From Gemmatimonadota bacterium (GTDB lineage: Bacteria > Gemmatimonadota > Gemmatimonadetes > Palauibacterales > Palauibacteraceae): a stretch of DNA of 64,000 nucleotides. The position numbers were made by a program, and so were the translations under genes. The notes below the pieces were generated by a model. The model was not told where the DNA came from. It did not search any database and saw nothing but the letters and a program-made list of their open reading frames with translations. Shown one piece after another: positions 5,369 through 34,023 of the stretch (its first letter is position 1; every line of letters starts with the position of its first letter). The DNA lies in the NCBI GenBank assembly GCA_022825725.1, contig JAJDWE010000075.1, positions 107,501 to 171,500 of the forward strand, read 5' to 3'.

Positions 5369-5384
5369 AGGCCCGCTCTCCGCC

Positions 5385-6617
5385 ATGCCGCGCCTCGAGA
5401 ACATCCGCTGTCTCGCCACCTGCGCGAACGCTTCCGGCCAGGACGACATCGGACTCATCCGGGACGCCGCGCTCGTGTGGCGGGATGGGATCGTGCGCTG
5501 GGCCGGACCCGCCGCTGCGCTGCCGGCCGAGTACGGGGCGGAGCCCGCCTGGAACGCCGGCGGAGGACTCGTCATTCCCGGACTCGTGGACGCGCACACC
5601 CATCTCGCCTTCGGCGGCTGGCGGGCGGGGGAGTTCTCCGACCGGCTCCGGGGCCGCGACTACCTGGAGATCGCCGCGGCCGGGGGCGGGATCCAATCCA
5701 CGGTGCGAGCGACACGCGCGCTCGACGAGGAGGCGCTGCTCGCGCGGGCGCACCGGTTCCTGTCCCGGATGGTGTCCCTGGGCATCACGACGGTCGAGGC
5801 GAAGACCGGGTACGGGCTCGACCTCGAGACGGAACTCCGGCTCCTCCGGGTGTACCGGCGACTCGACGAGATGGGACCGGCACGGATCGTCTCGACGTGC
5901 CTCGCCGCGCACCTCGTCCCTTCGGAGTGGGCGGCGGACCGGGCGGGCTACGTGAGGCTCGTTACGGAGCGGATCCTTCCCGCCGTGGCGGAGGAGGGGT
6001 TGGCCGAGTTCTGCGATGTGTTCGTCGAGGACTCGGCCTTCTCGGCCGACGAGGCGCGGCGGATCTGTGAGCGGGGATCCGAACTTGGGTTACGGCCGAA
6101 GCTCCACGTGGATCAGCTCACCGGCGGCCGCGGGGCCGAACTCGCGGCGTCTCTCGGGGCCGTGTCGGCGGACCACCTCGAGTACGTGTCGGAAGCCGGG
6201 ATCGAGGCCCTCGCGGCGGCGGGCGTCGTCGGGGTCACCCTTCCCCTCGCCACCCTCTACCTGAACCAGACGCCGCCCCCCGCCCGGGATCTCATCGACG
6301 GGGGCGTCGCGGTGGCCGTGGCAAGCGATTTCAACCCCGGCACGGCCCCGTCCTATCACCTTCCCTTCGCCATGACGTTGGCCTGCACGCGACAGCGGAT
6401 GACGCCAGCCGAAGTGCTCAAGGGCGCGACCCGCTACGCGGCGCGGGCCCTCGGCCGCGAAGGCGAAGTGGGCTCGCTGGAGCCGGGAGCCGCGGCGGAC
6501 TTCGCGATCATCGACGCCCCGGACGTGGAACACTGGCTCTACCACCTGCGGCCCAACGCGTGCGTCGCCACGGCGGTCGGCGGCGAGATCCGACACGGCG
6601 CTTCCCGGGCGATTTAG
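5385..6617 (+). CDS. hutI: imidazolonepropionase
   Basis: VDAHTHLAFGGWRAGEF, TTVEAKTGYGLD, LHVDQLT, ASDFNPGT motifs. Confidence 0.93.
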   Translation: MPRLENIRCLATCANASGQDDIGLIRDAALVWRDGIVRWAGPAAALPAEYGAEPAWNAGGGLVIPGLVDAHTHLAFGGWRAGEFSDRLRGRDYLEIAAAGGGIQSTVRATRALDEEALLARAHRFLSRMVSLGITTVEAKTGYGLDLETELRLLRVYRRLDEMGPARIVSTCLAAHLVPSEWAADRAGYVRLVTERILPAVAEEGLAEFCDVFVEDSAFSADEARRICERGSELGLRPKLHVDQLTGGRGAELAASLGAVSADHLEYVSEAGIEALAAAGVVGVTLPLATLYLNQTPPPARDLIDGGVAVAVASDFNPGTAPSYHLPFAMTLACTRQRMTPAEVLKGATRYAARALGREGEVGSLEPGAAADFAIIDAPDVEHWLYHLRPNACVATAVGGEIRHGASRAI

Positions 6618-17409: not shown

Positions 17410-19176
17410 TTAGTGGCTGCCGGCGGCCGGGCTCACGACATCCGGCCGTTCGTTCTGCGCCAGCCAGTCCTTGTCCTCCACATCCGGGTGGCTGTACTCG
17501 TGCGGCCCGTGGTAGACGACGGGGACCTCTTCCCAGTTGCCGTGCTTGGGCGGCGAGGGCGTCTGCCATTCCAGCGTCGTCGCGTTCCACGGGTTCGCCC
17601 CGGCCTTCTTTCCCTTCTTCAGGCTCCAGAAGAAGTTGAACGCGAACAGGAAGCCGGACGCGAAGAGTCCGAACGCCGCCCACGTGATGAGGGCGTTCGT
17701 GTCCTCGATGCCCTGCAGGTGCGCGTAGCCGGTGGAGTCGTAGATGCGCCGCATCATCCCCACCATCCCCACGCCGTGCATCGGGAAGAAGACCAGGTTG
17801 AAGAAGACGAAGGTGAGCCAGAAGTGGATCTTGCCCATCGTCTCGTTCATCAGCCGGCCGAACATCTTCGGATACCAGAAGTAGATCGCCCCGAAGAGCG
17901 CGAACAGGCTTCCTCCGAACAGCACGTAGTGGATGTGCGCGACGATGAAGTACGTGTCGTGGATGTAGATGTCGACCGGCGTCGAGGCCATGAAGACCCC
18001 CGACAGGCCTCCGATCGCGAACATCGCCACGAACCCGATCGCGAACAGCATCGCCGAGTGCAACTGGAGGTTCCCGCGCCACATCGTGCCCATCCAGTTG
18101 AACGTCTTGATCGCGGAGGGCACGGCGATGAAGAGCGTCGAGACCGTGAACGCGAGTCCCAGCGTCGGGTTCATCCCGCTCTGGAACATGTGGTGGCCCC
18201 ACACGATGAAGCCGAGGAAAGCGATCGAGACGAGCGCCAGGACCATCGCCTTGTACCCGAACACCGGCTTCCGCGAGCCTACGGAGAGGATCTCGGAGGT
18301 GAAGCCCATGGCCGGGAGGATGAGGATGTAGACCTCCGGGTGGCCGAAGAACCAGAACAGGTGCTGCCACAGGAGCGGCTGTCCGCCCCCCTCCGGGAGG
18401 AAGAAGCTCGTTCCGATCGTCTGGTCGAAGATGAGCATGATCCCCGCCGCCGAGAGCACGGGCATGGCGAGCAGCGCGAGGATCGCCGTGATGAACAGCG
18501 ACCAGATGGTCAGCGGCATGCGCATCCAGGTCATGCCCGGCGCGCGCATGTTGATCGTCGTCGTGATGTAGTTCACCGAGCCCAGGATCGAGGAGAGCCC
18601 GATGAAGACGAGCGCCACCAGCCACAGGATCTGTCCCAGGCCGACGCCGGTCAGGTCGGGACGGGCACTGAGCGGCGCGTAGAGCGTCCACCCGGCCCCC
18701 GCCGCGCCTCCCAGCACGAAGAAGCTCGCCAGGGTGAGGATGCCGGCCGGCACCATGGCCCAGAAGGAGAGCATGTTCAGCCGCGGGAACGCCATGTCGT
18801 GCGTCCCCAGCTGCAGCGGGATGAGGTAGTTCGCCCACACGCCCACGAGCATCGGCATGATGGCGAGGAACACCATCACCGAGCCGTGCATCGTGACAAG
18901 GGCGTTGTAGAACTCCGGCAGGATGTACCCGCTCGCCACCATCGTCTCCGGGAAGATCCCGCCCAGCGGCAGTTCGCCCCGCGCCGGCCATGCGATCTGG
19001 TATCGCATGAGCATCGCCAGCAATCCCCCGATCATCAGGAAGAAGAGCGTGTAGATCAGGAACTGGATCGCGATGACCTTGTGGTCGGTCGAGAAGATGT
19101 ACTTGCGCAGGAACGACTGCTCGTGCTCCTCGTGCAGGATCGCCTGCCCGGTCGCCTCCGCTACGATCGTCGCCAT
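17410..19176 (-). CDS. ctaD: cytochrome c oxidase subunit I
   Basis: STDHKVIAIQFL, WFFGHPEVYILILPAMGF, VWGHHMFQSGM, TVSTLFIAVPSAIKTFNW, HDTYFIVAHIHYV. Confidence 0.96.
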   Translation of the reverse strand: MATIVAEATGQAILHEEHEQSFLRKYIFSTDHKVIAIQFLIYTLFFLMIGGLLAMLMRYQIAWPARGELPLGGIFPETMVASGYILPEFYNALVTMHGSVMVFLAIMPMLVGVWANYLIPLQLGTHDMAFPRLNMLSFWAMVPAGILTLASFFVLGGAAGAGWTLYAPLSARPDLTGVGLGQILWLVALVFIGLSSILGSVNYITTTINMRAPGMTWMRMPLTIWSLFITAILALLAMPVLSAAGIMLIFDQTIGTSFFLPEGGGQPLLWQHLFWFFGHPEVYILILPAMGFTSEILSVGSRKPVFGYKAMVLALVSIAFLGFIVWGHHMFQSGMNPTLGLAFTVSTLFIAVPSAIKTFNWMGTMWRGNLQLHSAMLFAIGFVAMFAIGGLSGVFMASTPVDIYIHDTYFIVAHIHYVLFGGSLFALFGAIYFWYPKMFGRLMNETMGKIHFWLTFVFFNLVFFPMHGVGMVGMMRRIYDSTGYAHLQGIEDTNALITWAAFGLFASGFLFAFNFFWSLKKGKKAGANPWNATTLEWQTPSPPKHGNWEEVPVVYHGPHEYSHPDVEDKDWLAQNERPDVVSPAAGSH

Positions 19177-19954: not shown

Positions 19955-20818
19955 TTACTGGGTGCGCTCCACCCGGATGCGATTCGTACCGTGCTCGAGC
20001 ACGAGCGCTTCGCCCATGGGGACGTCGGCGCCCATCATCTCGCCGCTGTAGTCGAACGAGGCTTCGGCCGTCCCGCCCGCCGTGACGGTCACGCTCGACG
20101 TCATCGTGCCGAACTCCTCGTGCCACGCCGTCATCGTGTAGTCGCCGGCGGGCACGTTGGCGATCGAGTAGCTCCCGTCGGCGCCCGTCACCGCGAAGTA
20201 CGGGTGGTCGACGACGCCGATGTACGCCTGCATCCAGCCGTGCACGTCACAGCGCACCGGAACCATCACCTCGGCCACGGCGAAGCGCTGCGTGCTCGTG
20301 ATCCCCGCCCGGGGCTGGCTGATGTTGAAGCCGCGGTTCTCGGTCGGGGTGGCGTTGATGTTGTGGAGCAGGTTGTCGCTGTTCGAGATCTCGATGTCCT
20401 GCCCGCTCTGGACGCCGAGCACGTGCGGCGTGTAGCGGCAGTTCACCTGGTCGAGCGACGCGGCGCCCGACGCGGCCGGCGCGCCGGAGACCCCCTCGCT
20501 CAGGTAGACGAACACGTTGGCGAGGCCGCCACCGGACACGAGGACGTTCTGGGCCATGGGCCCGTCCGCGCCGTAGCCGGCGGCGCAATCCGCCTCGGTC
20601 GACATGTCGATGGCCTCCATCGTCGGGACCATCCCGCCGAAGTTGGCCATGCCCGAGATCGTACCCACCGTGGACGGATCCACCGCGGCGGCGGCCGGCG
20701 CCGCTTCGCCCGCGTCGTCCCCCGCCCCTTCGGACGATCCGCCGCCACCGCCGCCACAGGCGGCCATCGCCGCGACGGCCAGCAGGACGGCCGAGCGGTT
20801 CCAGAAATGCGATCGCAT
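19955..20818 (-). CDS. cupredoxin-like lipoprotein with C-terminal carboxypeptidase-regulatory-like domain
   Basis: Lipobox-like AAMAACGGG; NLLHNINA...VPVRCDVHGWMQAYIGVVDHPYF gives a type-1-Cu-like H/C/H/M ligand set; GSYSIANVPAGDYTMTAWHEEFG. Confidence 0.65.
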   Translation of the reverse strand: MRSHFWNRSAVLLAVAAMAACGGGGGGSSEGAGDDAGEAAPAAAAVDPSTVGTISGMANFGGMVPTMEAIDMSTEADCAAGYGADGPMAQNVLVSGGGLANVFVYLSEGVSGAPAASGAASLDQVNCRYTPHVLGVQSGQDIEISNSDNLLHNINATPTENRGFNISQPRAGITSTQRFAVAEVMVPVRCDVHGWMQAYIGVVDHPYFAVTGADGSYSIANVPAGDYTMTAWHEEFGTMTSSVTVTAGGTAEASFDYSGEMMGADVPMGEALVLEHGTNRIRVERTQ

Positions 20819-20880
20819 TGACTTACCTCCGTACGAGAAGCTGTTGCGCAATTGGCTGTTGAGAGCCCTTCCCCGTTGCT

Positions 20881-22443
20881 TCATCGATCCCTCCGACGGT
20901 CCTGGGCCCGGCGCACGAGAACGAGACCGAAGGCCCCCGTCAAGAGCATGGCCAGCAGGGGCGTCACGACGACCGTGCTGGATGCCGGAGGTTCGAGGAG
21001 AATGTAATACCACGTGCTCACGGAACTCCGCTTTCCGACCTCGGCGCTGGACCCATCCCACGCCTGGAAAGCGATGGGCGTCGGGGTGCCCTCCACGAAG
21101 TCGAGGCCGTCGCTTTCGACCTCGATCGGGCGGCGGACATAGAGCGTCCAGCGTCCTTCCTCCCACGTCGCCTCTCCCGCCACCGGATCCTCGGCGAGCG
21201 GTTCGACGGAGTCCAGGCCCCGGCCGCGTGCCGCGCCGACGCCGGTCTCCGAATCCCACGTCCAGAGATAGACCGGCTCCCGGGCATCTCCCATCAGGAA
21301 GTACGGCCGGTCGGTGCCCTCGGGCATTTCGAAGGGGAACTGGAGGAGCACGGCGTCCGGGGGCCGCACGGTGGGCGCGCCGGCGCTGTCGAGGGCGATC
21401 GGCTCCGCTCCGTCCAGATCGAGCGCGGCCGTGATCTTGTTCTGCCACTCGTCCCAGTTCGGGTCCGGGCTGTTCGACGGGTCGTTCCACTGCACGCGCA
21501 GCGCGACGTCGATTCCGTCGTGAAGCCCCTGCACCCAGAGTCCGTCGACCGTGGGCGCGAAGTTGCGCGGCAGCTGGACGACCTGGCCTGACAGCGGGAA
21601 ATGGAAGGCCTCGACGCCCGCCCAGGCCTCTTCCCCGCCATCGGCGGGAAGCCCGCCCTCGGCACGCCCGACGCGGATCACCTCCCGCAGCGGCGGCATC
21701 TCGCGCGGCCCGAACGAGGCGAGGTAGTGCGCCAGCTGCCAGACCTCGTCAGGCGAGACGACGCCGGAGTTCATGGCGTCGATTGCCGACGGCATCGGAG
21801 TGCCGTCGAGCCCCGTCAACATCCTCGTGTGCATGTCTTCGACGCTGCTGCCGCCGTTGAAGACCCACGCCTCCGTGAGGTCGGCCGCACGAATGGGGAG
21901 ACCCCGCCAGTCCTCCAGCGTCGGCGCCGAGGTCCCGTCGCCCCGCCCGGAGAGGCCGTGGCACTCTTCGCACAGCATCGTGAGATACGCCGCCGCCCCC
22001 GCCTCGATCGCGGCGGGACCGCCGCCGGGATCCGATCCGAAGTCCAGCGGCTCGGGGGCGGGACCCTGGGCGAAGAACCTCGAGAAGCTCTTCAGGTAGA
22101 CGATGACGTCGTCGATTTCCTGGTCCGTGAGATTGGGCCAGCCCGGCATCGTCGTGCCGGGGAGGCCGTTCTCGATCGCGAACCGGATGTCGGCGTCCGT
22201 CGGGAGTTGTCCGCTCCCGGTCGTCCGGATCTGGTAGAGCGCCTGCGCAAAATCGCGCGGCCGCGGCAGCATCGACGCGGCGGCCGAGCCATCCCCCTGC
22301 CCGGCTTCGCCGTGACACTCCGCGCACCAGCGGTCGTACACGACCTTGCCCGCGGCGGCCGCGTCCTGCTGCCCCACCAGCGCGGGCGGTGCGGCCGCGA
22401 AGAGGGCGAGGAGCACGATTCCCGTTCCGCGCGGCGCCCTCAT
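20881..22443 (-). CDS. diheme c-type cytochrome with C-terminal ethylbenzene-dehydrogenase-like heme-binding domain and C-terminal TM helix
   Basis: CAECH and CEECH motifs, signal peptide, ALRVQWNDPSNSPDPNWDEW...DAVLLQFPF, C-terminal hydrophobic helix. Confidence 0.75.
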   Translation of the reverse strand: MRAPRGTGIVLLALFAAAPPALVGQQDAAAAGKVVYDRWCAECHGEAGQGDGSAAASMLPRPRDFAQALYQIRTTGSGQLPTDADIRFAIENGLPGTTMPGWPNLTDQEIDDVIVYLKSFSRFFAQGPAPEPLDFGSDPGGGPAAIEAGAAAYLTMLCEECHGLSGRGDGTSAPTLEDWRGLPIRAADLTEAWVFNGGSSVEDMHTRMLTGLDGTPMPSAIDAMNSGVVSPDEVWQLAHYLASFGPREMPPLREVIRVGRAEGGLPADGGEEAWAGVEAFHFPLSGQVVQLPRNFAPTVDGLWVQGLHDGIDVALRVQWNDPSNSPDPNWDEWQNKITAALDLDGAEPIALDSAGAPTVRPPDAVLLQFPFEMPEGTDRPYFLMGDAREPVYLWTWDSETGVGAARGRGLDSVEPLAEDPVAGEATWEEGRWTLYVRRPIEVESDGLDFVEGTPTPIAFQAWDGSSAEVGKRSSVSTWYYILLEPPASSTVVVTPLLAMLLTGAFGLVLVRRAQDRRRDR

Positions 22444-23231
22444 TCGTGCCCCCCTTCCTCTTCCCACGTGCGCGGCGGGAACCCCGTCTGATCGTAGAGA
22501 TAGAGGATCGTCGCCCATATCTCGTCCTGCTCGAGGATCGTCTCCCAGGCCGGCATCGCCGAGTCCCACGGCGTCCCCTCGCGCGGGAGGCCGGGGCCGC
22601 CCTTGACGATGCGCCAGAATACGTAGCTCTCCGTGAGCTGGGGCAGGTTGCCCGAACTCGTGAAGTCGGCGGGGACCGGGTTGAAGGCCTGCGCGTAGTG
22701 TCCCTGGCCGTCGAGCAGGTCGCCGTGGCAGGGCACGCAGTTTCGCACGTAGATCCGCTTGCCGACCGCCAGGTGCTCCTCCATGGAGCCTTCCTCGCGC
22801 AGCGGATTCTCGAGCCCCGTCAGCTCGATTGTTTCGCCGCGGAAGGTGAGCTGGTTCGGCGGCGCGGGGTGTACTGCCCGCAGCGTGGCAGGCGCGGCGT
22901 AGCTCGGCTTCACGCGCTCGTAGGCAAGCCAGCCGATCAGGACCGGGAAGGCGACCATGAGGATGCCGCGCACCGTCCGCCGGTCGGGCTGCACCATCGT
23001 CGCGCGGATCGGCTCGCGGAAGCGCTGCCACCGCTCCTCGTCCGCGCTCATGTAGAGGAGGACGCCGACGAGCACGATCAGCATGTACTCCACGATGACC
23101 GAACTCGGGACCGGCGCGCTCGCGACGCCGATGACCGGGAGCACGTACCCGATCACGTACTCGAACGCGACGTAGGACGCCACGACCACGATCGCGCCCT
23201 GCCAGAACGGGTGGGACAGGTAACGTCTCAT
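22440..23231 (-). CDS. membrane-anchored monoheme cytochrome c
   Basis: N-terminal TM helices, YVRNCVPCHGDLLDGQG; ATGA overlaps on both sides. Confidence 0.8.
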   Translation of the reverse strand: MRRYLSHPFWQGAIVVVASYVAFEYVIGYVLPVIGVASAPVPSSVIVEYMLIVLVGVLLYMSADEERWQRFREPIRATMVQPDRRTVRGILMVAFPVLIGWLAYERVKPSYAAPATLRAVHPAPPNQLTFRGETIELTGLENPLREEGSMEEHLAVGKRIYVRNCVPCHGDLLDGQGHYAQAFNPVPADFTSSGNLPQLTESYVFWRIVKGGPGLPREGTPWDSAMPAWETILEQDEIWATILYLYDQTGFPPRTWEEEGGHE

Positions 23232-24064
23232 CGGCTACCTCCCGCGCTGTCGGGCGGGACTTCGGCCGCGTCGCCGGGCGCCTCCGCGCCGGCTCCCGAG
23301 CCTCCCACGAAGAAGTCCACGAGCACATCGAGTTCCACCGGAGACATGAGATCGCCGAAGATCGTCGGCATCGTCCCGGCGAAGGCGGAGTATTCCTCGT
23401 TGATCGTCGCCATCGGATCCACGATCCCCTCGCGGACGACGGCGGGGTCCTGTCCCCGCAGTTCCTCGAAGGGGGGGGCGACCATGCCGCCCTCCCCGCC
23501 GAGCGCGTGGCAGGCGAGGCAGCCCTGCGCCGTGATCAGCGCGACCGCGTCGACCTGGTTCGGATCGGTGACGGCGACCGGCGGCGGCGCAGCGGCGGCC
23601 GCGTCGTCGGCGGCCAGCGCCGCGGCGAAGTCGTCCGCGTTCACCGTGATCTCGCCGCCCTGCGATTCCAGGAAGGCGACGAGCGTCCACAGCTCGGCCT
23701 GCGACGAAACGATGCTCTGATCGATCATGATGGGGTCGAAGCCCTCCACGATGTAGGCCGTCGGGTTGACCAGAGACTCCCACAGGTAGTCCTTGCAGCT
23801 CTGCCCGGGGACGCGCGTCGCGCACACGCCGCCCACCACTCCGAGGAGATCCGGGGCGCGCGTGCCGAGGCCGTGGCACGCCGTGCAGCCGCCCGCCCCC
23901 GCGTAGATCTCTTCACCGATCGCCGCCAGCTCCTCGGGCGGCATGTCCGCGCTGAGCACGATTTCCCGCGGCACCGCCGACTGCACCTGCGGGATCACGT
24001 TCGCCACGAAGGTGAACACCGCCAGCGTCGCCACAACCGTGAACAGGATTTTCAGGTTCGTCAT
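23228..24064 (-). CDS. diheme cytochrome c
   Basis: GGCTACHGLG and GCLACHALGG motifs; N-terminal TM anchor. Confidence 0.82.
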   Translation of the reverse strand: MTNLKILFTVVATLAVFTFVANVIPQVQSAVPREIVLSADMPPEELAAIGEEIYAGAGGCTACHGLGTRAPDLLGVVGGVCATRVPGQSCKDYLWESLVNPTAYIVEGFDPIMIDQSIVSSQAELWTLVAFLESQGGEITVNADDFAAALAADDAAAAAPPPVAVTDPNQVDAVALITAQGCLACHALGGEGGMVAPPFEELRGQDPAVVREGIVDPMATINEEYSAFAGTMPTIFGDLMSPVELDVLVDFFVGGSGAGAEAPGDAAEVPPDSAGGSR

Positions 24065-24103: not shown

Positions 24104-25921
24104 TCAATCCACGTCGCCCAGGGCCGGCGACGGCATCGGCTCCCCGAGCGTCCCGTGCCCCTCCGTGCCCTTCGCTTCCGCCTCGGCTTCCTGATAGACG
24201 GAGCGTTCGGCCAGGCCGCCGAGCCAGAAGATGACGCCGACGAGCCCGAAGAAGATGAGCACGCAGATGCTGATGATGGTCGCCGCCGGCCCGAGCGCCG
24301 GCGTGAACGCCTGCTCGCTCGTGTCCCGTATCACCTCGTAGACGTGCCAGTGCTGCCGGATCCCGCTGCGGGCGAAGCCCATCAGCCCCATGAGCCACGT
24401 AAACGTGACGGCAAGGATGAGGAGCGCGTACTGCGACCGGTCCGGCATCCTCCCCCAGCGGATCTCGCCGCGGGACTTCGCGCCCCGGAGCATTGCCATG
24501 TCGATCCCGATGACGAACAGGATCGTCGCCAGGACCGCGAGCACCTGGTAGACGGAGAAACCGATCCGCACGATCGCGGTGACGAAATAGCCGTACACGC
24601 CGTAGAACACGACGACGACGGCGCACAGCGCGAAGGCCGCCCCCTGCAGCATCGTCCCGGCGCGCGCCCACGGCACCACGGGGTCCTTGTTCGCCCTCCG
24701 GTACATGAGGAAGGAGAGGAACGTCGTCAGGATCATCAGGTTGACGGCCGTGTTCTTCGCGCTCATCACGCCGAGCACCTGCAGGAAGGGGTGCCGGATC
24801 CCTCCCATGGCCGCGATCTCGTCGCGGTCGGCGATCATCGTGTTCGGCGTGGCCCACACGATGACCCCCAGCACCAGCACGAGCAGCATCCACTTGATGT
24901 AGGGCTGGAACCGTTCCGCCCCCGGGATCCGTCCCATCCCGATCCACAGGTAGTAGTTCCCCGCGAGGAAGAGGATGCCGATGAGGAAGGCCTGGATGAT
25001 CCAGAGCCAGCTCATGAAGCCGCCCATCATCGTGATGCCCATCTGCTGGCTGAACTCGTAGATCTCGCGTCCGAGCCAGTATCCGGCGAAGGGGAGGACG
25101 ATGAGCGCGCCGATCGCGATGAGGTTGCCGGTGTAGCCCATCCAGTCGTAGTGCGCGCGTTCCTCGTCGGTCCTGCTCGTGAGGAAGCGGTAGGCCGCGT
25201 AGGCGCCGACGATCGCGCCGCCGAAGACGACGTTCGCGAGCAGCCGGTGGATGTTGATGGGCATCCAGGTCGCGTTGTTGATCGCGCTCCACAGCTGGAC
25301 GGTCTGAGGCGCCGTGTCCGCCGTGAGTCCCTCCGGAGGGCTCATCATGTAGGTGAGCCACCCGTTCGCGATGAACATGACGATCGTGCCCCAGATGTTG
25401 AGCATGATCCCCAGGCACCAGTGCACCTTCTTCGCGGCGCCCTTCTTCCACGCGTCCCACCCGTAGTAGTAGAGGTAGAGCGTAAACGATTCGAGGAAGA
25501 AGAGGCCGGCGTACACCCACATCGACGGAGCGAAGATCGCCGTGAGGTACGCCCAGAAGCGCGGGTAGAGCGTCGAGAGGAAGAAGACGAGGATCGCGCC
25601 CCAGATCGCGGTCGCGCTGTAGGCCACGAGCAGGAGGCGGGTGAATTCCTTCGCGAGTTTGTCGTACTTCTCGTCCCCCCCGAACATCCCGATCGCCTCG
25701 ATGACGACGGCGAACATCGGCACGCCGAGCACGAAGGCCGCGAAGAGCAGGTGGAGCTGGGCCGCGATCCAGACCGCGCCGCGACGGTCGAGTCCCAGGA
25801 AGTTGAATTCCCCGTAGTCGGGTCCCGGCACCTGCGCGAGGAGCGGGAGGGCGACCGCGAGTGCGAGGGCGGCGAGCAGTGCGCCGCGGGTCACGACACC
25901 ACGGGTCATCCGACGCTTCAT
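24104..25921 (-). CDS. cytochrome bd oxidase subunit I-like (CydA-like) membrane protein
   Basis: Helix-I His (WIAAQLHLLFAAFVLG), FFLES, MPINIHRLLANVVFGG, GIRQHWHVYEVIRDT (cf. GRQPW loop); N-terminal signal-like extension; no CydB in window. Confidence 0.82.
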   Translation of the reverse strand: MKRRMTRGVVTRGALLAALALAVALPLLAQVPGPDYGEFNFLGLDRRGAVWIAAQLHLLFAAFVLGVPMFAVVIEAIGMFGGDEKYDKLAKEFTRLLLVAYSATAIWGAILVFFLSTLYPRFWAYLTAIFAPSMWVYAGLFFLESFTLYLYYYGWDAWKKGAAKKVHWCLGIMLNIWGTIVMFIANGWLTYMMSPPEGLTADTAPQTVQLWSAINNATWMPINIHRLLANVVFGGAIVGAYAAYRFLTSRTDEERAHYDWMGYTGNLIAIGALIVLPFAGYWLGREIYEFSQQMGITMMGGFMSWLWIIQAFLIGILFLAGNYYLWIGMGRIPGAERFQPYIKWMLLVLVLGVIVWATPNTMIADRDEIAAMGGIRHPFLQVLGVMSAKNTAVNLMILTTFLSFLMYRRANKDPVVPWARAGTMLQGAAFALCAVVVVFYGVYGYFVTAIVRIGFSVYQVLAVLATILFVIGIDMAMLRGAKSRGEIRWGRMPDRSQYALLILAVTFTWLMGLMGFARSGIRQHWHVYEVIRDTSEQAFTPALGPAATIISICVLIFFGLVGVIFWLGGLAERSVYQEAEAEAKGTEGHGTLGEPMPSPALGDVD

Positions 25922-27330
25922 CGCTTTTCCCCCCGTCCCGCGCTCCGCCGACTCCGGGCGAAGAAGGGCATCCGTTTCGAAAAGTCCACCGGCATGGCCC
26001 GGCGGACTTCGGTCATCACGTCGAGCGTCACTTCGGCGTGCCCGCGGTCGCGCGCGAACTTCTCTACCCGCTCCGCCACCACGCCGCGCACGAAGCTGGG
26101 GATGGCGCTGAGCCGCGCATCGGCCTCCGCGCTCCACTGAAGCTGCTGCTCGGCCGCCGAGCCGTACGTGACCGGCCGGCGCGGTTCGATCGCCTCGGCG
26201 ATTCCGGGCGCCGGCTCGTACGCGCACGACGGATCCGGACCGAGCAGGTCGCCGTCCACCGCGTAGGCACGGGCGCGGCAACCGCCGCAGATGGCGCGGT
26301 ACTCGCAGCGCCCGCACTTTCCGCCCGGTTCGCCGTCGCGCAGCAGGCGGAAGACGGTCGCCTCCCGCCAGATCTCGCCGAAAGACGCCTCGGAGAGGTC
26401 GCCGGCCACCTCCGGCATGTACGGGCACGGCGTCACCTTGCCCTCGGGCGTGATGCGGCAGTACTGGACGCCGCAGGGGCAGCGGGTCCGGTAGTTCAGG
26501 AGCGGAGAGTCCGGATCCCTTTCGTACACATGCCGCATGAGTTGCGGCTGGCACTTGGAGCGGATCATGAGCCGCCCGCGGTAGTCCCGCTGGAGTTCGG
26601 CGAGCCGGACGACGATTTCGTCGTTCTCCGCGGGGGCGAGGCCCCGCATTCCCTCTCCCCTGCCCGTCTCGACGAGGAAATAGACGTTGAGGCAGACGGC
26701 GCCCTTCGCATCGGCCCAGGCGGCGATGGCGTCGAGTTCGTCCCGGTTCCCGCGCGTGACAGTGAACTGGATGAGGAAGTCGAGGCGGTGCTCCGCCAGC
26801 CGGTCGACCGCGGCGAGCGTGTCTTCGAGGGCGCCCTCGCCGTGCCGGAAGCGGTCGTGATAGCGCGGGTCGAGGGAGTCGATGCTCAGGGCCACGCCCT
26901 GCACGCCGGCCGCCTTGAGCGAGGCGATGCGCTCATCGGTGAGTCCGGTGCCGTTCGTGCCCACGGTCACGGTGGCGCCGCGTTCAGAGGCGTAGGCCGC
27001 GATCTCCTCGAGGTCGGAGCGCACGAGCGGCTCCCCCCCGCTGAGGATGAGGAGGGGGGATGGACTCACTTCCAGGACCTGATCGACGACGCGGAAGCAC
27101 GCTGCGGTATCGAGCTCGTCGTCGGACCCATGCCAGGATCCGGCGGAGATATAGCAGTGGGAGCAGGCAAGATTGCAGCGGCGCGTCAGGTTCCAGGCGA
27201 CAACGTGCGGGATGGCGACATCGGGTTCGGTGCGCGGCGACGCGGCGGCTGGGGCGCCGTCCCAGAGCGAACCGGGCACGGCCGGGCTCCGGTGCGCGAC
27301 AGCTTCCGCGGCCAGCGGAGCGCCGGTCAC
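25918..27330 (-). CDS. radical SAM/SPASM protein (NirJ/AhbD-like) with C-terminal PCP_red-like domain
   Basis: WNLTRRCNLACSHCYIS (CxxxCxxC), LSGGEPL, SPASM cysteines CPCGVQYCRITPEGKVTPCPY and CGRCEYRAICGGCRARAYA; C-term WSAEADARLSAIPSFVRGVVAERVEKFARDRG; GTG start overlapping Usp stop. Confidence 0.85.
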   Translation of the reverse strand: MTGAPLAAEAVAHRSPAVPGSLWDGAPAAASPRTEPDVAIPHVVAWNLTRRCNLACSHCYISAGSWHGSDDELDTAACFRVVDQVLEVSPSPLLILSGGEPLVRSDLEEIAAYASERGATVTVGTNGTGLTDERIASLKAAGVQGVALSIDSLDPRYHDRFRHGEGALEDTLAAVDRLAEHRLDFLIQFTVTRGNRDELDAIAAWADAKGAVCLNVYFLVETGRGEGMRGLAPAENDEIVVRLAELQRDYRGRLMIRSKCQPQLMRHVYERDPDSPLLNYRTRCPCGVQYCRITPEGKVTPCPYMPEVAGDLSEASFGEIWREATVFRLLRDGEPGGKCGRCEYRAICGGCRARAYAVDGDLLGPDPSCAYEPAPGIAEAIEPRRPVTYGSAAEQQLQWSAEADARLSAIPSFVRGVVAERVEKFARDRGHAEVTLDVMTEVRRAMPVDFSKRMPFFARSRRSAGRGEKR

Positions 27331-29558
27331 TTCGGGCGCGATCCCTGCTCCGAAGCGGGATCGCTCTCCGCTCCCGACTCCTCTCCGAGTTCCGTACGCG
27401 CGAACTTCTCGACGGCTGCGCGGGCATCGTCGGGCGAGACCATCTTGAAGTCGACGGGACAGTCCTCCGCCTGCTGCTCGATGTCGCGGATGGGACAGCG
27501 CGTCACCCCGGAGGCCTTCGCCTCCTCGATGAAGCGCTTCATCTCCTCGCTCATCCCGTCGACGCCGGCGGCCTCGGCCCGCGCCTGCTTCGCCTTCAAC
27601 TCGTTGAACATCACGAGCATCGTGTCGAGGTCGAACTCGTCGGCCGCGATCATCGCGTCCTTGTTTTCGTCCATCACGACCGTCGTCACGCGCCACATGC
27701 CCTGGTCGCGGGCGAAGCGCTCCACCGTGTTCCGGGCGAGGGGACGCGCGATCAGCGGTACCCGCCCCAGGCGTTCGAATGCCTCGTGCGTCCACACGAT
27801 CGGGTCGGCGGCCGTGCGGTCGCGGGGGATCTGGTTGTCCGTGACCGGACACTTCGCCATCACCGGGAGGGGGGCCTCGAAGGCGTCGGCGTCGCTCGTC
27901 TCCACGACGGTGCGCTTCATCGCCTCATCCGCCTTCACCTCGGCGAGGGCGAGTTCCTCCGCATCGCCGATCCCCATCACGAGCTGCATGTGGGTCGGGA
28001 GGAGCTTCTTGATCGCCTCGTCGAGGCGTTCGTTGGTCACGACGGGCAACTGGTCGCGGTTCCAGAGTTCCGCCTTCTCGCCGTTCGCGCGGCCGTTGGC
28101 GGCCTCTCCGACCTCGGCGATCGAAGGCGCGGCGCCGGTCTCGAGGGCTTCGCGCGCCACCTGCGCCGTGCCGTTCGTCGCGGTCTCGGAGGCCCGGTAC
28201 TTCTTCTCGTCCTTCGGATTCGGGACGAACGCGGCCGCGTAACGGCTCCCCGGCCCGTAGTGCTCGAGGACGAACTCCTCGACGGCCTTGCGCGCGATCC
28301 CGAGGGCGAAGGGCGGCACGCGCAGGATCCTCACCTCCGCTTCGGGCGCCCACTCGAGCCCGGCCTCCCCGTCCTCTTCGATCCAGGGGATCTCCTCCGG
28401 GCGCACCTGCTCGGTCCCGATCAGGAGCACGTTCGCGTCGGAGAGGTGGACGAGGTTGTCGGCCTGCGACCCGAGGTCCGTGCCCTCGATCCGGTGCGAG
28501 CCGTGGCGGGCCACGACGATCAGGGAAGGATCGATCTCCTCGGCCCACTTGAGGAGGGCGTCGAACGGCTTCCCGATGAGGACCTGGGTCTCGATCTCGA
28601 CTTCGGGATACTCGCTCGCCATCACCTCGGCCCGCTTGATGTTCGCCTTGCAGAGGCGGAGGAGGCCCTTGTCGATGATGTTGTTGTGGAGTTCTTCCTG
28701 TTCCTCGAACTTGAACACCTTCGAGGCCTGGACCGAGAGCACGTCCTTGATGTTGTGGAAGACGACGTGGTGGTACTGCACGTCGAAGGCGCTCGCGATG
28801 TAGACCTTGGCCCCGTACTCGCGAGCCATATCGAGCGCGATCCGCAGCCCCTTGTACGCGTAGGCCGACCCGTCCACGCCGACGAGCCACTTGCCGCCTT
28901 CGAGCGGCCGGTCGTCGCGGATGATGAGCGCGTCCTTCTCGATCCCGCGGAGAGAGCGCGCGACGACGCCGCCGAGCCGGCTCCGCTCCTGCCGCCCGAG
29001 ACCGTGAGCGCCGATGGCGACGAGGTCGTACTCGCGGCCGGAAGTGCCCGCGAGCTTGTCCTCCTGTTCCTCGTCCTCGGCCAGCAGGCGGCCGTTCTCG
29101 CCCAGCTTGACGTCCGTGCGCTGCTTCTCGCTGCCGTCGTAGTTGTGGGCGATGTTGGGATCGAAGCCGATGAGGCTCGGGAGACGTCCGCCGCCGCGGT
29201 TCGCCTCGTTGATGATCTCCTCGTAATTGATGCCCTCGAGGAGCTGCCGCGTGATGGTCACGCCGGCTTCGCTACAGCGGCGGTGGAGCTGGTCCAGGAA
29301 GCTGTCGGAGATGAGCTGCAGCCCCTTCTCGATCAGCTTGTCGTGGATTTTCCGCTGCCTGCGGATCTCGGCCGGCTCCTGGAACTGGGCCGGGAGCCCG
29401 ATTTCGAGCTGGCGGAACCGGATGTCGTGGAGGCGCGCGGCGTAGACGTGGGAGCCGGTGATGCGGCCCCCGAAGCGAGCGCAGAGTTCGATGGCGCGGT
29501 CCACGGCCCAATCCGACTCGCGCGAGTTATCGACCGGGACAAATACCTCTCGATACAT
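27327..29558 (-). CDS. tandem universal stress protein domains fused to PCP_red-like domains
   Basis: Two Usp-like halves (VFVPVDNS...; WLVGVDGSAYAYKGLRIALDMA...VVARHGSHRI); WAPEAEVRILRVPPFALGIARKAVEEF and WTHEAFERLGRVPLIARPLARNTVERFARDQG. Confidence 0.72.
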   Translation of the reverse strand: MYREVFVPVDNSRESDWAVDRAIELCARFGGRITGSHVYAARLHDIRFRQLEIGLPAQFQEPAEIRRQRKIHDKLIEKGLQLISDSFLDQLHRRCSEAGVTITRQLLEGINYEEIINEANRGGGRLPSLIGFDPNIAHNYDGSEKQRTDVKLGENGRLLAEDEEQEDKLAGTSGREYDLVAIGAHGLGRQERSRLGGVVARSLRGIEKDALIIRDDRPLEGGKWLVGVDGSAYAYKGLRIALDMAREYGAKVYIASAFDVQYHHVVFHNIKDVLSVQASKVFKFEEQEELHNNIIDKGLLRLCKANIKRAEVMASEYPEVEIETQVLIGKPFDALLKWAEEIDPSLIVVARHGSHRIEGTDLGSQADNLVHLSDANVLLIGTEQVRPEEIPWIEEDGEAGLEWAPEAEVRILRVPPFALGIARKAVEEFVLEHYGPGSRYAAAFVPNPKDEKKYRASETATNGTAQVAREALETGAAPSIAEVGEAANGRANGEKAELWNRDQLPVVTNERLDEAIKKLLPTHMQLVMGIGDAEELALAEVKADEAMKRTVVETSDADAFEAPLPVMAKCPVTDNQIPRDRTAADPIVWTHEAFERLGRVPLIARPLARNTVERFARDQGMWRVTTVVMDENKDAMIAADEFDLDTMLVMFNELKAKQARAEAAGVDGMSEEMKRFIEEAKASGVTRCPIRDIEQQAEDCPVDFKMVSPDDARAAVEKFARTELGEESGAESDPASEQGSRPK

Positions 29559-29770
29559 GGCGCTCCGTTGGACGGCGTACTGCGGCCGGTTCACGCTTCT
29601 CGCGCCAGCCTCGCCCGGGTGCGAAGCCCGGATATACGCAGTCCGCGAAGATCGGCCACGGACAAGGAATTCAGCGATGCTGGTTCAAGGCCTTCGGGGT
29701 CCCCGGAGGTCCGGACCCCCGCTTATGGGCCAAGAAGTTGCGGCTGACCAAGAGGAAAGTCAAACGCCAT

Positions 29771-30478
29771 CTAGAGAGTTCTCGGCCAGCGGAGGCGACG
29801 GCTCCAATCCGAGGCGAAAATCGCGGCCCCGAAGGTGAAGCCGGCGGCGACGAGAAGGCTGCGGAGCCAGGCCGAATCGTCCATGGGCATCGGCCCGACG
29901 GCGGCCCCCAGGGCGGCCCGGAGAGGGGTGTAGGGATTCCAGTCCGCGACGAGAGATGTCCAGCCCGGCGCGGGCGTCCGGAAGAAGCCGGCGAAGTGCA
30001 GCAGGAGGAGCGACAGCGCTGCCGAAGCAAGGGCGGCCTCGGCGAGGGACCGAACCGCGGCGGCGACGAGAGGGCCGAGGAGATTGGCGAACCAGAGCGT
30101 CGCGAGGGTCGCGAGGAGGACGACGGGGGCCGCGCGCAAGCCGCCGGCCGACCACAGGAGGACGAACAGGGTCGGAACGAGTTGCACGGTGTCGACCGCG
30201 GTACCGGCAAGGGTCCTCTCCAGCAGCCAGCGGAGAGCCGGATACCCCGCCCGCAGGATCTCGTCGAGCCAGCCGTCCCGGGCATCCCGCACGGCCGGGA
30301 TCGCCGAGCCGAACGCTCCGAAGAAGACGATGAACACCCCAAAGACGGCGACACGGTGGGGGGCCGCCGCTTCGCTGAGCGCGACCGGCGTGAGAAGGAG
30401 GAGCGGCACGGCCACGTTCCAGGCGAAGAGCCGGCGCCGCGCGAGAGCCGAACGCCACGCCAGACGCCAGATCGTCAC
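29771..30478 (-). CDS. ABC transporter permease, CcmB-like
   Basis: Six hydrophobic segments; GTG start overlapping ABC ATPase stop; CcmB-like size and layout. Confidence 0.65.
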   Translation of the reverse strand: MTIWRLAWRSALARRRLFAWNVAVPLLLLTPVALSEAAAPHRVAVFGVFIVFFGAFGSAIPAVRDARDGWLDEILRAGYPALRWLLERTLAGTAVDTVQLVPTLFVLLWSAGGLRAAPVVLLATLATLWFANLLGPLVAAAVRSLAEAALASAALSLLLLHFAGFFRTPAPGWTSLVADWNPYTPLRAALGAAVGPMPMDDSAWLRSLLVAAGFTFGAAIFASDWSRRLRWPRTL

Positions 30479-31425
30479 GCGGTGTCCTCCGCGGTCTCTT
30501 CGAGGTCCCGTCCCGTCAGGATCGCGAAGGCGTCCGCGAGGCCGGGCTCCCGCACGTCCACGGAGGCAACGGAGGCTCCGGCGCGCAGGATCCACGCGAG
30601 CGTCTCCGGGAGGGCGCGGCTCGGATCCTCGACCTCCAGGAGCAGGCTGTCCTCCGCCCAGGAAGCCGGACGCACGCCCGCCGGCGCGGGATCGAGAGCA
30701 TAGCGGTCCGGATGCCCTCCCGCCGGGAACCGGATCTCGACCCGCGGGCGGACGCCGATCCGTTCGAGCAACCGGGCCGGAGTGTCCGCCACCTCGCAAC
30801 GCCCGTCGACAATGAAGGCCACCCGGTCGCAGTGCGCCGCGGCGAACCCGGGGTCATGGACGGAGAGCACCGCGGTGCCTCCCGCGGCCCGGTGGTCGGC
30901 GAGCGCCGCGGCGAACGCCGCACGGCCTCCGGGGTCGAGGCCCGCCAGCGGTTCGTCCAGGAGGAGCAGCCGGGGTCGCGCGCCGAAGGCGGCCGCGAGG
31001 GCGAGGCGTCGACGCATCCCGCTCGAATAGGTGCCGGCCGGACGCTTCGCATCGCCCGACAGGCCGAAACGCTCGATCCACGCGTCGGCCGCGGCCCGGG
31101 CCTCCCGGGGCCGCGCGCCGTGAAGTTCGAGGAGGGTGGCTGCGTTCTCGCGCCCGCCGAGCCAGGACCGCAGCGCCGGCTGATCGGGGGCGAGCCACCG
31201 CTGACGGGCGTCGTCCACCGAGGAATCTCGCCGCAGGCCCGGGATCCCGTCGCCTGCGAGGAGTCGGAGAAAGGTGGATTTGCCGCACCCGTTCGGGCCG
31301 AGGAGTCCGAGTCGTTCTCCGTCCCGGATCTCGAGCGAAAGTTCGTGAAGGGCGGCACTCCCATCGGGGTAGGTGTAGCTGACGCCCCGCGCCGCGACGA
31401 GCGGCGGAACGGCGGGGCGGGTCAA
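30475..31425 (-). CDS. ABC transporter ATP-binding protein
   Basis: Walker A GPNGCGKST, YSSGMRRRLALAAA signature, LLLLDEPLAGLD Walker B; TTG start overlapping ferredoxin stop. Confidence 0.88.
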   Translation of the reverse strand: MTRPAVPPLVAARGVSYTYPDGSAALHELSLEIRDGERLGLLGPNGCGKSTFLRLLAGDGIPGLRRDSSVDDARQRWLAPDQPALRSWLGGRENAATLLELHGARPREARAAADAWIERFGLSGDAKRPAGTYSSGMRRRLALAAAFGARPRLLLLDEPLAGLDPGGRAAFAAALADHRAAGGTAVLSVHDPGFAAAHCDRVAFIVDGRCEVADTPARLLERIGVRPRVEIRFPAGGHPDRYALDPAPAGVRPASWAEDSLLLEVEDPSRALPETLAWILRAGASVASVDVREPGLADAFAILTGRDLEETAEDTA

Positions 31426-31676
31426 GGGACGATCTCGATCCCGTCCTCCCAGACGGTGATCGCATCGACGGGGCAGGATGCGCACGCCTCAAGGAAACGC
31501 TTTCGCGACGCATGTTCCGGGGTCGTGAACACGGCCACGCCATCCTCGTCGAGGTCGAACGCCTCCGGCGCTTCCTCGATGCAGTCGCCGAACCCGACGC
31601 ACAGGTCGCGGTCGACGACCGCCCGGACGCCGTGAACTTCCCGTTCGATCAGCGGATCCGGAGCGCCTTCCATCAC
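31422..31676 (-). CDS. small ferredoxin ([3Fe-4S]/[4Fe-4S] type)
   Basis: DRDLCVGFGDCIEEAPEAF...CASCPVDAITV. Confidence 0.85.
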   Translation of the reverse strand: MMEGAPDPLIEREVHGVRAVVDRDLCVGFGDCIEEAPEAFDLDEDGVAVFTTPEHASRKRFLEACASCPVDAITVWEDGIEIVP

Positions 31677-32116
31677 ATCCCCTCCAGTCCGAGATCGGTA
31701 CGCGCGCGGTCCATGACGGCGGGGGTCATCTCCTCGATCCCCCGCTCCTTGGCGTAGTCGCTGTAGATCTTCTTCACCATCCCCCGGACGAACGAGGGGA
31801 CGAGACCGAGCCGCTCCACCGCCTCCACACTCCATCGGACGCCCCCCGGACTCGCCGCGGGGGGCGACTCGAAGGCTTCGTCCCTGCCTGTGGCCACCCC
31901 GCTGCGAATGCCCTCGAAGTTCGCGTCGGGCACCGTGCGGCCGCCCACCTTCACGCCGAGGGAACTCACGAGTTGCGTTTCCATGGGGTTGGCCAGCATC
32001 GCGGTCTTACGCCCGCAGTCCGGACACTTGAAGACGGCGGCCATCGTGCCGTCGCCCGGCACGGCGCGTTCGTCGAACGCCATCTGCCGGTCGCATTCGA
32101 GGCAGAGGAACTTCAC
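31673..32116 (-). CDS. zinc-ribbon protein with C-terminal PCP_red-like domain
   Basis: CLECD and CPDCG zinc-ribbon cysteines; WSVEAVERLGLVPSFVRGMVKKIYSDYAKERG; GTG start overlapping upstream stop. Confidence 0.75.
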   Translation of the reverse strand: MKFLCLECDRQMAFDERAVPGDGTMAAVFKCPDCGRKTAMLANPMETQLVSSLGVKVGGRTVPDANFEGIRSGVATGRDEAFESPPAASPGGVRWSVEAVERLGLVPSFVRGMVKKIYSDYAKERGIEEMTPAVMDRARTDLGLEGM

Positions 32117-32982
32117 AGCTGCTCCGCCAGGCGCCCGAGCGCCTCCGCCGCGGGCCCCGTCCCGGCCACCCACGGCTCGAGACGGCCTCCGTCGGCAGCG
32201 GCCCCCAACTCGGGGTCGAAGGGGAGGCGGGCGAGAAGCGGGACGTCGAAGCCTTTCGCAAGATCTTCGCCCGCGTCCCCGGCATGCAGCGGGACGAGGC
32301 GGCCGCAGGCGTCGCAGAGGACTCCCGACATGTTCTCGATCACCCCCAACAGGCGCAGGCCGCGTGTCCGCGCCATGTCGAGCGAGCGGGTCACGGAGTC
32401 GCGCGAAGCCGCGCTCGGGATCGTGACCGTGAGAACTCCCGCCAGTTGGGGGACGAGCACGTGCAGCTCGGCGAGACGCTGGGTACCCGGCGGCAGGTCG
32501 ACGAGTAGGACGTCGAGCTCCCCCCAGGCGACATCCGCGATGAACTCCCGCAGCGCTCCGCGCTCCTGGGCGCCGCGCCAGACGAAGCCGGCGTCGGCGG
32601 GTTCGCGCCAGGCGAGGGCACGCTCCGGCTCCAGCAGGAGCCCCATCGACATGACGCGCACCCCCGCCGGCGAGGTGGGCGGATCGAGTCCGTCCGGTCC
32701 CTCCGCGAGCGCCCCCGGTTCGATGCCCAGAAGGCGCGGAACGCTGGGACCGTTCAGATCCGCGTCGATAAGGCCCACGCGACGCCCCCGACGGGCCAGC
32801 GCCGTCGCGAGAAGGGCGGAGACGAGGCTCTTCCCCACCCCGCCCTTGCCGCTCATCACGGCGACGACCCGCGCCACGGAGGCGAGTCGAGCGGACACGC
32901 GCTCGTCCTGCGCCGCCATCTGATCGGGAAGATCCGAGGGCAGTTCGTCGACTTCGTGATAGGTGCGGATTCCGGAGTTCAT
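32113..32982 (-). CDS. Mrp/ApbC (NBP35)-family P-loop ATPase, putative Fe-S carrier
   Basis: VMSGKGGVGKSLVSALLA, DADLNGPSVPRLLG, LLVDLPPGT, VIENMSG..CDACG. Confidence 0.88.
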   Translation of the reverse strand: MNSGIRTYHEVDELPSDLPDQMAAQDERVSARLASVARVVAVMSGKGGVGKSLVSALLATALARRGRRVGLIDADLNGPSVPRLLGIEPGALAEGPDGLDPPTSPAGVRVMSMGLLLEPERALAWREPADAGFVWRGAQERGALREFIADVAWGELDVLLVDLPPGTQRLAELHVLVPQLAGVLTVTIPSAASRDSVTRSLDMARTRGLRLLGVIENMSGVLCDACGRLVPLHAGDAGEDLAKGFDVPLLARLPFDPELGAAADGGRLEPWVAGTGPAAEALGRLAEQL

Positions 32983-33122
32983 CGGGGGTGGAAGCTCCCA
33001 CCGGGCCTGTGAAGGGTCAACAGCATCACCGACAGCCTCACCGAGACGACGTTTCGAGGTTCGTCTCGTCATCGTACGATGTGTGACGGTTCCAGCGCCG
33101 TCCACCGTGAACGGAACGTCCC

Positions 33123-33387: not shown

Positions 33388-34023
33388 GTGCGCGACGGGA
33401 GCGAGGAACGGGCGGGGGGAGGCCGGCCGGTCGTGCTTTATGTCGCGGGGGCCGCGTTCCTCTTCGTCATCGCCGTCGTCGTGGCCGGCTCGTTCGTAAG
33501 ACCCGATCCACTAACGTTCATCCCCACGCCCATCGCCCCGCAGCCTCCGGTGGATGGGTTCGTGGTGGATACCGTGACGATCGATGCGCGGGACGGCTCG
33601 CAGTGGATCCACTTCGATTTCGACAAGGGGAGCGCGGTCGATGGGCCGCTCGCGGGCTGGGATCTCGCGCTCAACCGGTACCACGTCGTCGTGAACGGCG
33701 GAACCGGATACCCCGGGGCCGGGGGGGCCATCGCCATCGGCGCGCCGTGGGAGGCCGTGACCGAGGCCCCGGCGTCCGGGTATGCGACGACGGAGCGCGC
33801 GCTGGAGGACGGCCCGGCAACGCCCGGGCTCGAGCGCTGGTATCGGTACGGGTTCTTCTCCCACCTCCTCGAGCCGAAGGACGAGACGTACGTGATCCGG
33901 ACTGCGGAGGGGCGTTACGCCAAGCTGAGGATCCTGAGCTACTACTGTCCCCAGGCGACGCCGGGATGCATGACCCTCGTGTACGGATACCAGGCCGACG
34001 GGTCGCGCCGCCTCACGGGCTGA
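33388..34023 (+). CDS. HmuY-like protein
   Basis: DGSQWIHFDFDKGS...GWDLALNRYHVVVNGG...YVIRTAEGRYAKLRILSYYC resembles HmuY family; N-terminal TM/anchor; GTG start. Confidence 0.7.
   Translation: MRDGSEERAGGGRPVVLYVAGAAFLFVIAVVVAGSFVRPDPLTFIPTPIAPQPPVDGFVVDTVTIDARDGSQWIHFDFDKGSAVDGPLAGWDLALNRYHVVVNGGTGYPGAGGAIAIGAPWEAVTEAPASGYATTERALEDGPATPGLERWYRYGFFSHLLEPKDETYVIRTAEGRYAKLRILSYYCPQATPGCMTLVYGYQADGSRRLTG

Follow-up and report, generated by a model that had tools for sequence, protein, structure and literature searches.

A PCP_red-containing gene module linked to a CydA-like oxidase subunit, with a possible role in tailoring or delivering haem

The window studied here, a stretch of 64,000 nucleotides from a Gemmatimonadota genome (contig JAJDWE010000075.1, positions 107,501 to 171,500), carries a minus-strand operon that encodes three proteins with the small PCP_red domain, one of them a radical S-adenosylmethionine (SAM) enzyme, together with a divergent CydA-like oxidase subunit. 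The gene order is Mrp, Zn-ribbon/PCP_red, ferredoxin, a variable ATP-binding cassette (ABC) pair, Usp-Usp-PCP_red, radical SAM/PCP_red and CydA-like. Our best reading of these sequences is an undescribed module that may tailor or deliver haem for bd-like (OR-N/OR-C-type) oxidases. A functional link of the module to the CydA-like complex is very probable, and its substrate is probably a tetrapyrrole; somewhat less firmly, we favour the view that the segment between Mrp and radical SAM/PCP_red, both included, serves specifically to mature the CydA-like subunit of a bd-like complex linked to cytochrome c, whose haem it would tailor. An earlier sequence-only reading of this DNA had proposed that the module builds, modifies or inserts a tetrapyrrole or Fe-S cofactor for the CydA-like subunit or its cytochromes, and this proposal is supported by co-occurrence, an AhbD-type cysteine motif and family scores.

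Co-occurrence of the module with the CydA-like gene

Divergent CydA proteins (50 to 93 bits on PF01654, where canonical CydA scores far higher) are encoded in 51 of 200 Gemmatimonadota genomes, and a comparison of the position lists of PCP_red and CydA matches, with counts rechecked, places a PCP_red-ended gene directly upstream on the same strand in all 51. With these genomes spread over seven families, the pair has a patchy distribution but is never broken up. PCP_red without divergent CydA is found in 21 Gemmatimonadota genomes, 17 of which have the high scores typical of BchB, and all five proteins sampled from such genomes lie above the BchB cut-off (TIGR01278). We also fetched 20 loci from other genomes of the phylum, covering six families besides that of one exception (L054); several are cut at contig ends (e.g., L049-L052), and not every gene is visible. 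The operon recurs in 19 of these loci with a constant gene order, except that the ferredoxin lies upstream of Mrp in about half, and this recurrence of the same gene set in relatives argues that the operon is more than chance. Its variable part is the ABC pair (5 of the 20 loci), while the CydA-like protein is strongly conserved (mean column identity 73%, 19 sequences). The twentieth locus (L054:7846-9153), from a same-order relative (G160), has a radical SAM/PCP_red gene on its own, and a PF01654 search of the G160 genome gave no CydA.

The association extends to other phyla. All 21 CydA-like genomes (>300 bits) among 294 Planctomycetota have PCP_red, compared to 2 of the 273 others (above the cut-off), as a co-occurrence at genome level. 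An alignment scan detected radical SAM/PCP_red in named genomes of Acidobacteriota, Poribacteria, Nitrospinota, Nitrospirota, Chloroflexota, Planctomycetota, Pseudomonadota, Thermodesulfobacteriota and others, and 30 of 31 genomes with this enzyme have a CydA-like gene (29 at >300 bits and one as a fragment at a contig end; the profile matches in Nitrospina reach 617-628 bits). None of 19 genomes whose AhbD/NirJ-related radical SAM enzyme lacks PCP_red has a CydA-like gene, and in 18 of them PCP_red is missing altogether. Most of these controls are anaerobes or archaea, so that the within-phylum tests carry more weight as a control. Fisher p-values for these comparisons (1e-12 to 1e-30) ignore relatedness and are descriptive only. 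The CydA-like gene directly adjoins radical SAM/PCP_red at two loci (L123, L130) and shares its cluster at three more (L088, L114, L120), and Mrp and the Zn-ribbon/PCP_red protein accompany the enzyme in Acidobacteriota and Poribacteria. Neighbourhood conservation in relatives, which the sequence-only reading had named as a test that could refute its proposal, is thus seen in 51/51 Gemmatimonadota, 21/21 Planctomycetota (genome-level) and 30/31 others.

Gene content of the operon

The eight minus-strand genes described by the sequence-only reading are present at 24104-32982, but the operon is longer and runs on to 17410, with a tight coding order and few-base overlaps between several of its genes. 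Downstream of the CydA-like gene it continues with three c-type cytochromes, a periplasmic protein, CoxB and CoxA:

32113..32982, minus strand: Mrp/NUBPL-type P-loop ATPase of the Fe-S cluster carrier family with a C-terminal CxxC (PF10609, 215 bits)
31673..32116, minus strand: ZnPCP, a four-cysteine ribbon with a C-terminal PCP_red (PF08369, 42.1 bits)
31422..31673, minus strand: single-cluster ferredoxin, kept with the operon in relatives (PF13370, Fer4_13, 44.8 bits)
30475..31425, minus strand: ABC-2 type exporter ATPase, DrrA-like, variable part (PF00005; best NCBIfam match drrA, 132 bits)
29771..30478, minus strand: ABC-2 type permease, variable part (PF01061, 40 bits)
27327..29558, minus strand: UspPCP, two Usp domains and then two PCP_red copies, the first weak and the second strong (PF00582, 101 bits; PF08369, 53.4 bits)
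25918..27330, minus strand: radical SAM/SPASM enzyme, AhbD/NirJ-related, with a C-terminal PCP_red (PF04055, PF13186; PF08369, 53.7 bits)
24104..25921, minus strand: divergent CydA-like subunit, the presumed client (PF01654, 82 bits, N-terminal half)
23228..24064, minus strand: c-type cytochrome, membrane-anchored at its N terminus, with two CxxCH motifs (PF13442/PF00034), adjoining CydA-like in other phyla too
22440..23231, minus strand: c-type cytochrome with N-terminal hydrophobic helices, kept in other phyla (PF13442/PF00034)
20881..22443, minus strand: two cytochrome c domains and an ethylbenzene-dehydrogenase/NXR-gamma-like EB_dh domain (PF00034, 72 bits; PF09459, 45 bits)
19955..20884, minus strand: periplasmic CarboxypepD_reg/fn3_3 protein (PF14686, PF13620), kept beside the complex, with a homologue adjoining CydA-like in the anammox-like locus L236
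19192..19863, minus strand: CoxB, cytochrome c oxidase subunit II (PF00116, PF02790)
17410..19176, minus strand: CoxA, haem-copper oxidase subunit I (PF00115, 504 bits)

Pfam confirmed the earlier assignments of the Mrp/NUBPL ATPase, ferredoxin, ABC ATPase, Usp, radical SAM plus SPASM and Cyt_bd_oxida_I domains. The permease had been called CcmB-like, a label that did not hold, as its match is to the ABC-2 type family PF01061 and it has no CcmB match. We therefore rejected a CcmAB-type haem export, given also that the ATPase scores 88.7 bits versus a CcmA cut-off of 131.6 and that the ABC pair is variable. An alternative start of the Mrp gene is possible upstream at 33072. The ribbon cysteines of ZnPCP (C5, C8, C31 and C34) are invariant and UspPCP has a mean identity of 72% (13 sequences aligned in each case). 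Just upstream of the operon, the plus strand encodes an HmuY-like protein of a haem-binding family (33388-34023), beyond which lies hemC (at 34013).

The PCP_red proteins and possible roles of the module

PCP_red had been recognised by the sequence-only reading in three proteins, and all three match PF08369 above its curated cut-off of 32.5 bits, at 31700-31834, 27660-27794 and 26002-26136 (42.1, 53.4 and 53.7 bits); a second, weak copy lies at 28263-28352 in UspPCP. This domain of 45 residues is shared with BchB/ChlB of dark-operative protochlorophyllide reductase, where it is thought to act as a tetrapyrrole-binding lid, but the operon proteins lack the nitrogenase-like core, and BchB models match them by their last 50-70 residues only (33-38 bits versus cut-offs of at least 490). 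True BchB of phototrophic relatives, taken as controls, reaches 535-596 bits on TIGR01278, and most of these relatives in our sample are without a CydA-like gene. A remnant of photosynthesis was rejected because the window's genome has no PCP_red protein outside the operon (PF08369 search) and phototrophic relatives have true BchB. PCP_red therefore likely has a role outside photosynthesis, as proposed earlier, since it is confined to a single operon in this genome and the PCP_red-bearing Planctomycetota examined have NXR-type clusters. In domain content, two Nitrospirota proteins (L110:3296-4228 and 5021-5764) show only two or three tandem PCP_red domains in Pfam, and a Usp-PCP_red protein of Poribacteria (L094:3079-5001) has an additional weak rubredoxin-like domain.

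The CydA-like gene is clustered with NxrA-, NxrB-, delta- and NxrC-type genes in several Planctomycetota, an arrangement also reported for Kuenenia (PMC3578206), and we call such genomes anammox-like solely for this NXR-cluster arrangement and not for their taxonomy. They encode Usp-PCP_red inside the cluster and, outside it, a radical SAM enzyme bearing three PCP_red domains, and they have one further PCP_red protein; at L237:8391-10286, the radical SAM gene with its three C-terminal PCP_red domains lies far from CydA-like. In all five genomes examined, a protein joining PCP_red, a sulfite-reductase-like (NIR_SIR) domain and a ferredoxin is followed by two mutually similar genes, which we label as siroheme-decarboxylase-type by sequence resemblance judged by eye, and in a sixth genome (G506) Pfam assigns the downstream gene to this type (NirDL/AsnC; NIR_SIR and Fer4 domains). 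These loci (L238:8666-10564 and L250-L254) tie PCP_red to tetrapyrrole synthesis a second time, independently of the module.

The radical SAM/PCP_red enzyme scores best on the NCBIfam models of AhbD (TIGR04545, 272.6 bits) and NirJ2 (271 bits), in both cases below cut-offs of 500. Its counterparts in Nitrospina, Nitrospira and one anammox-like genome also remain below the AhbD cut-off (297-336 bits), while two AhbD controls pass it (568 and 599 bits) and two further AhbD-like proteins score 441 and 464. A tree of 95 sequences places all PCP_red-bearing enzymes but one in a moderately supported group (83/95 at its base) next to AhbD/NirJ2; the exception, L119, is truncated by its contig end. 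Eight SPASM cysteines are invariant (25/25) with a spacing of C-x23-C-x17-C-x36-C-x2-C-x5-C-x2-C-x17-C, which fits the published full AhbD motif of methanogens and sulfate reducers that binds two auxiliary clusters (PMC10452713). The enzyme thus shares its radical SAM domain and full SPASM motif with AhbD but differs by the C-terminal PCP_red, the sub-cut-off score, the separate tree group and the lack of AhbA/B in Gemmatimonadota carriers. AhbD performs the oxidative decarboxylation of Fe-coproporphyrin III. NirJ of haem d1 biosynthesis belongs to the same superfamily branch and removes propionate side chains, but has a single auxiliary cluster (PMC12505453), whereas our enzyme has ligands for two, scores below the NirJ cut-off and is not accompanied by a siroheme decarboxylase in Gemmatimonadota carriers. 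This decarboxylase (PF17805) is found in 22 of 200 Gemmatimonadota genomes and in none of the 51 with the CydA-like gene, and the substrate there is therefore more likely haem or a porphyrin of the ordinary route.

Taken as a haem-tailoring pathway, the module would work through a radical SAM/PCP_red enzyme that binds haem or an iron-porphyrin, with PCP_red as a tetrapyrrole-binding lid by analogy to BchB, and that receives electrons from the ferredoxin. The enzyme would alter a peripheral side chain, for which a propionate as in AhbD and NirJ is the foremost candidate, though propionate chemistry by this enzyme is possible rather than probable. UspPCP and ZnPCP may hold or pass on the modified tetrapyrrole, Mrp may supply Fe-S clusters to the module, and the tailored product would be placed in the CydA-like protein.

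Several observations weigh against this interpretation. Co-occurrence by itself is compatible with any assembly role; the Nitrospina radical SAM/PCP_red gene lies elsewhere in the genome with no CydA-like gene within 10 kb, one genome (G226) has the enzyme and three others (G278, G393 and G242) have PCP_red without a CydA-like gene. Peptide maturases too are found among SPASM enzymes, and in Foldseek the solved structures closest to the radical SAM enzyme are PqqE, SkfB and SuiB. It is conceivable, though unlikely, that the enzyme is a protein maturase that cross-links or modifies a side chain of the CydA-like subunit or a cytochrome, with PCP_red as a mere docking domain gathering the proteins of the module. 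SPASM enzymes being mostly peptide maturases, and the presence of PCP_red on three unrelated proteins of one operon, would suit this alternative, but the AhbD and NirJ2 scores exceed those for the mycofactocin maturase (141 bits) and PqqE (119 bits), and PCP_red independently accompanies siroheme-decarboxylase-type genes. The fold matches are weak evidence, since no AhbD structure is among the Foldseek matches listed, and AhbD models themselves match SuiB best (PMC10452713). The AlphaFold model of the enzyme (mean pLDDT 84.6, pTM 0.82) does not settle the domain contacts. Altogether, the AhbD-type cysteine motif, the family scores and the independent PCP_red operon with siroheme-decarboxylase genes argue for tetrapyrrole chemistry.

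That the module instead assembles Fe-S clusters or c-type cytochromes for the complex as a whole, and leaves the tetrapyrrole unchanged, is quite improbable. Mrp and ferredoxin are Fe-S proteins and three c-type cytochromes are encoded in the operon, but the ABC pair is not of the CcmAB type and most relatives lack it, the fetched loci of Nitrospina, Nitrospira and Thermodesulfobacteriota show radical SAM/PCP_red with no Mrp-ZnPCP visible beside it, and c-type cytochromes are common in bacteria while the distribution of PCP_red does not track them. A plain AhbD-type haem synthase for general haem supply, to which the full SPASM motif would point, is very improbable in view of a patchy distribution that tracks the CydA-like gene rather than the need for haem, the absence of AhbA/B and the scores of all members tested below a cut-off that two AhbD controls pass. 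Synthesis of siroheme-derived haem d1 or a relative is scarcely credible, as the near-top NirJ2 match and the Planctomycetota PCP_red protein beside AhbA/AhbB-type genes are set against two predicted auxiliary clusters instead of the one in NirJ (PMC12505453) and against the absence of PF17805 from all 51 CydA-like genomes, which leaves a siroheme/haem d1 route in Gemmatimonadota unsupported. A replacement of complex III is likewise unsupported, because the presence of cytochrome b does not track the module cleanly. Neither cytochrome b nor ActD was found in the window's genome (G000), where the missing ActD is probably an assembly gap given its presence in 192 of 200 genomes including all eight congeners.

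The CydA-like subunit and known bd-like oxidases

HHalign aligns only residues 19-248 of E. coli CydA with the CydA-like protein, whose ten best Foldseek matches are all CydA; its AlphaFold model (mean pLDDT 74.0, pTM 0.76) leaves domain contacts unsettled. Across many phyla it keeps the haem histidines of canonical quinol-oxidising cytochrome bd (H19 in 72/74, H186 in 74/74) as well as H126 (74/74) and E107 (71/74, otherwise Asp), but Glu99 is replaced by Tyr (72/74) or Phe (2/74), and an additional conserved His526 lies in a region resembling the canonical GRQPW motif. Lys252 and Glu257 of the E. coli Q-loop have no aligned counterpart, with the alignment ending before both. The same combination, no quinol site but haem ligands retained, was reported earlier for bd-like proteins (PMC3578206). 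This residue pattern would fit an altered active-site haem but falls short of proof. The CydA-like proteins of a Nitrospira-labelled (L123:11253-12938) and a Thermodesulfobacteriota (L130:11225-12904) metagenome-assembled genome have Met at H19 and Phe at E99 and may therefore be a different subtype.

In the nitrogen cycle a central place belongs to the bd-like oxidases of Nitrospira, Nitrospina and anammox bacteria, whose function and haem type are unsettled in the literature covered here. A near-constant companion gene set predicts a special cofactor and names a candidate enzyme for making it. We tentatively suggest that a hitherto unknown modified haem, made by radical SAM/PCP_red, is present in the bd-like oxidases of nitrite oxidisers, anammox-type bacteria, Gemmatimonadota and others, and that PCP_red is a general tetrapyrrole-handling domain. 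If so, PCP_red would gain a role outside photosynthesis, and chlorophyll synthesis would be merely one of its uses.

The OR-N/OR-C class was reportedly founded in a 2021 paper by Murali and is said to be defined by homology to the Nitrospinota/Nitrospira CydA-like proteins and the lack of a quinol site. In the part of the open-licence PubMed Central literature that was covered, no PCP_red or radical SAM partner is described for bd-like oxidase clusters. For the bd-like oxidases of Nitrospira, Nitrospina and Kuenenia, no quinol-binding loop has been reported (PMC3578206, PMC6606698; OR-N type PMC10839748), and their clusters share with ours the CydA-like subunit, cytochromes c and an alternative NxrC, whereas the Gemmatimonadota set differs from them in being joined to CoxB-CoxA.

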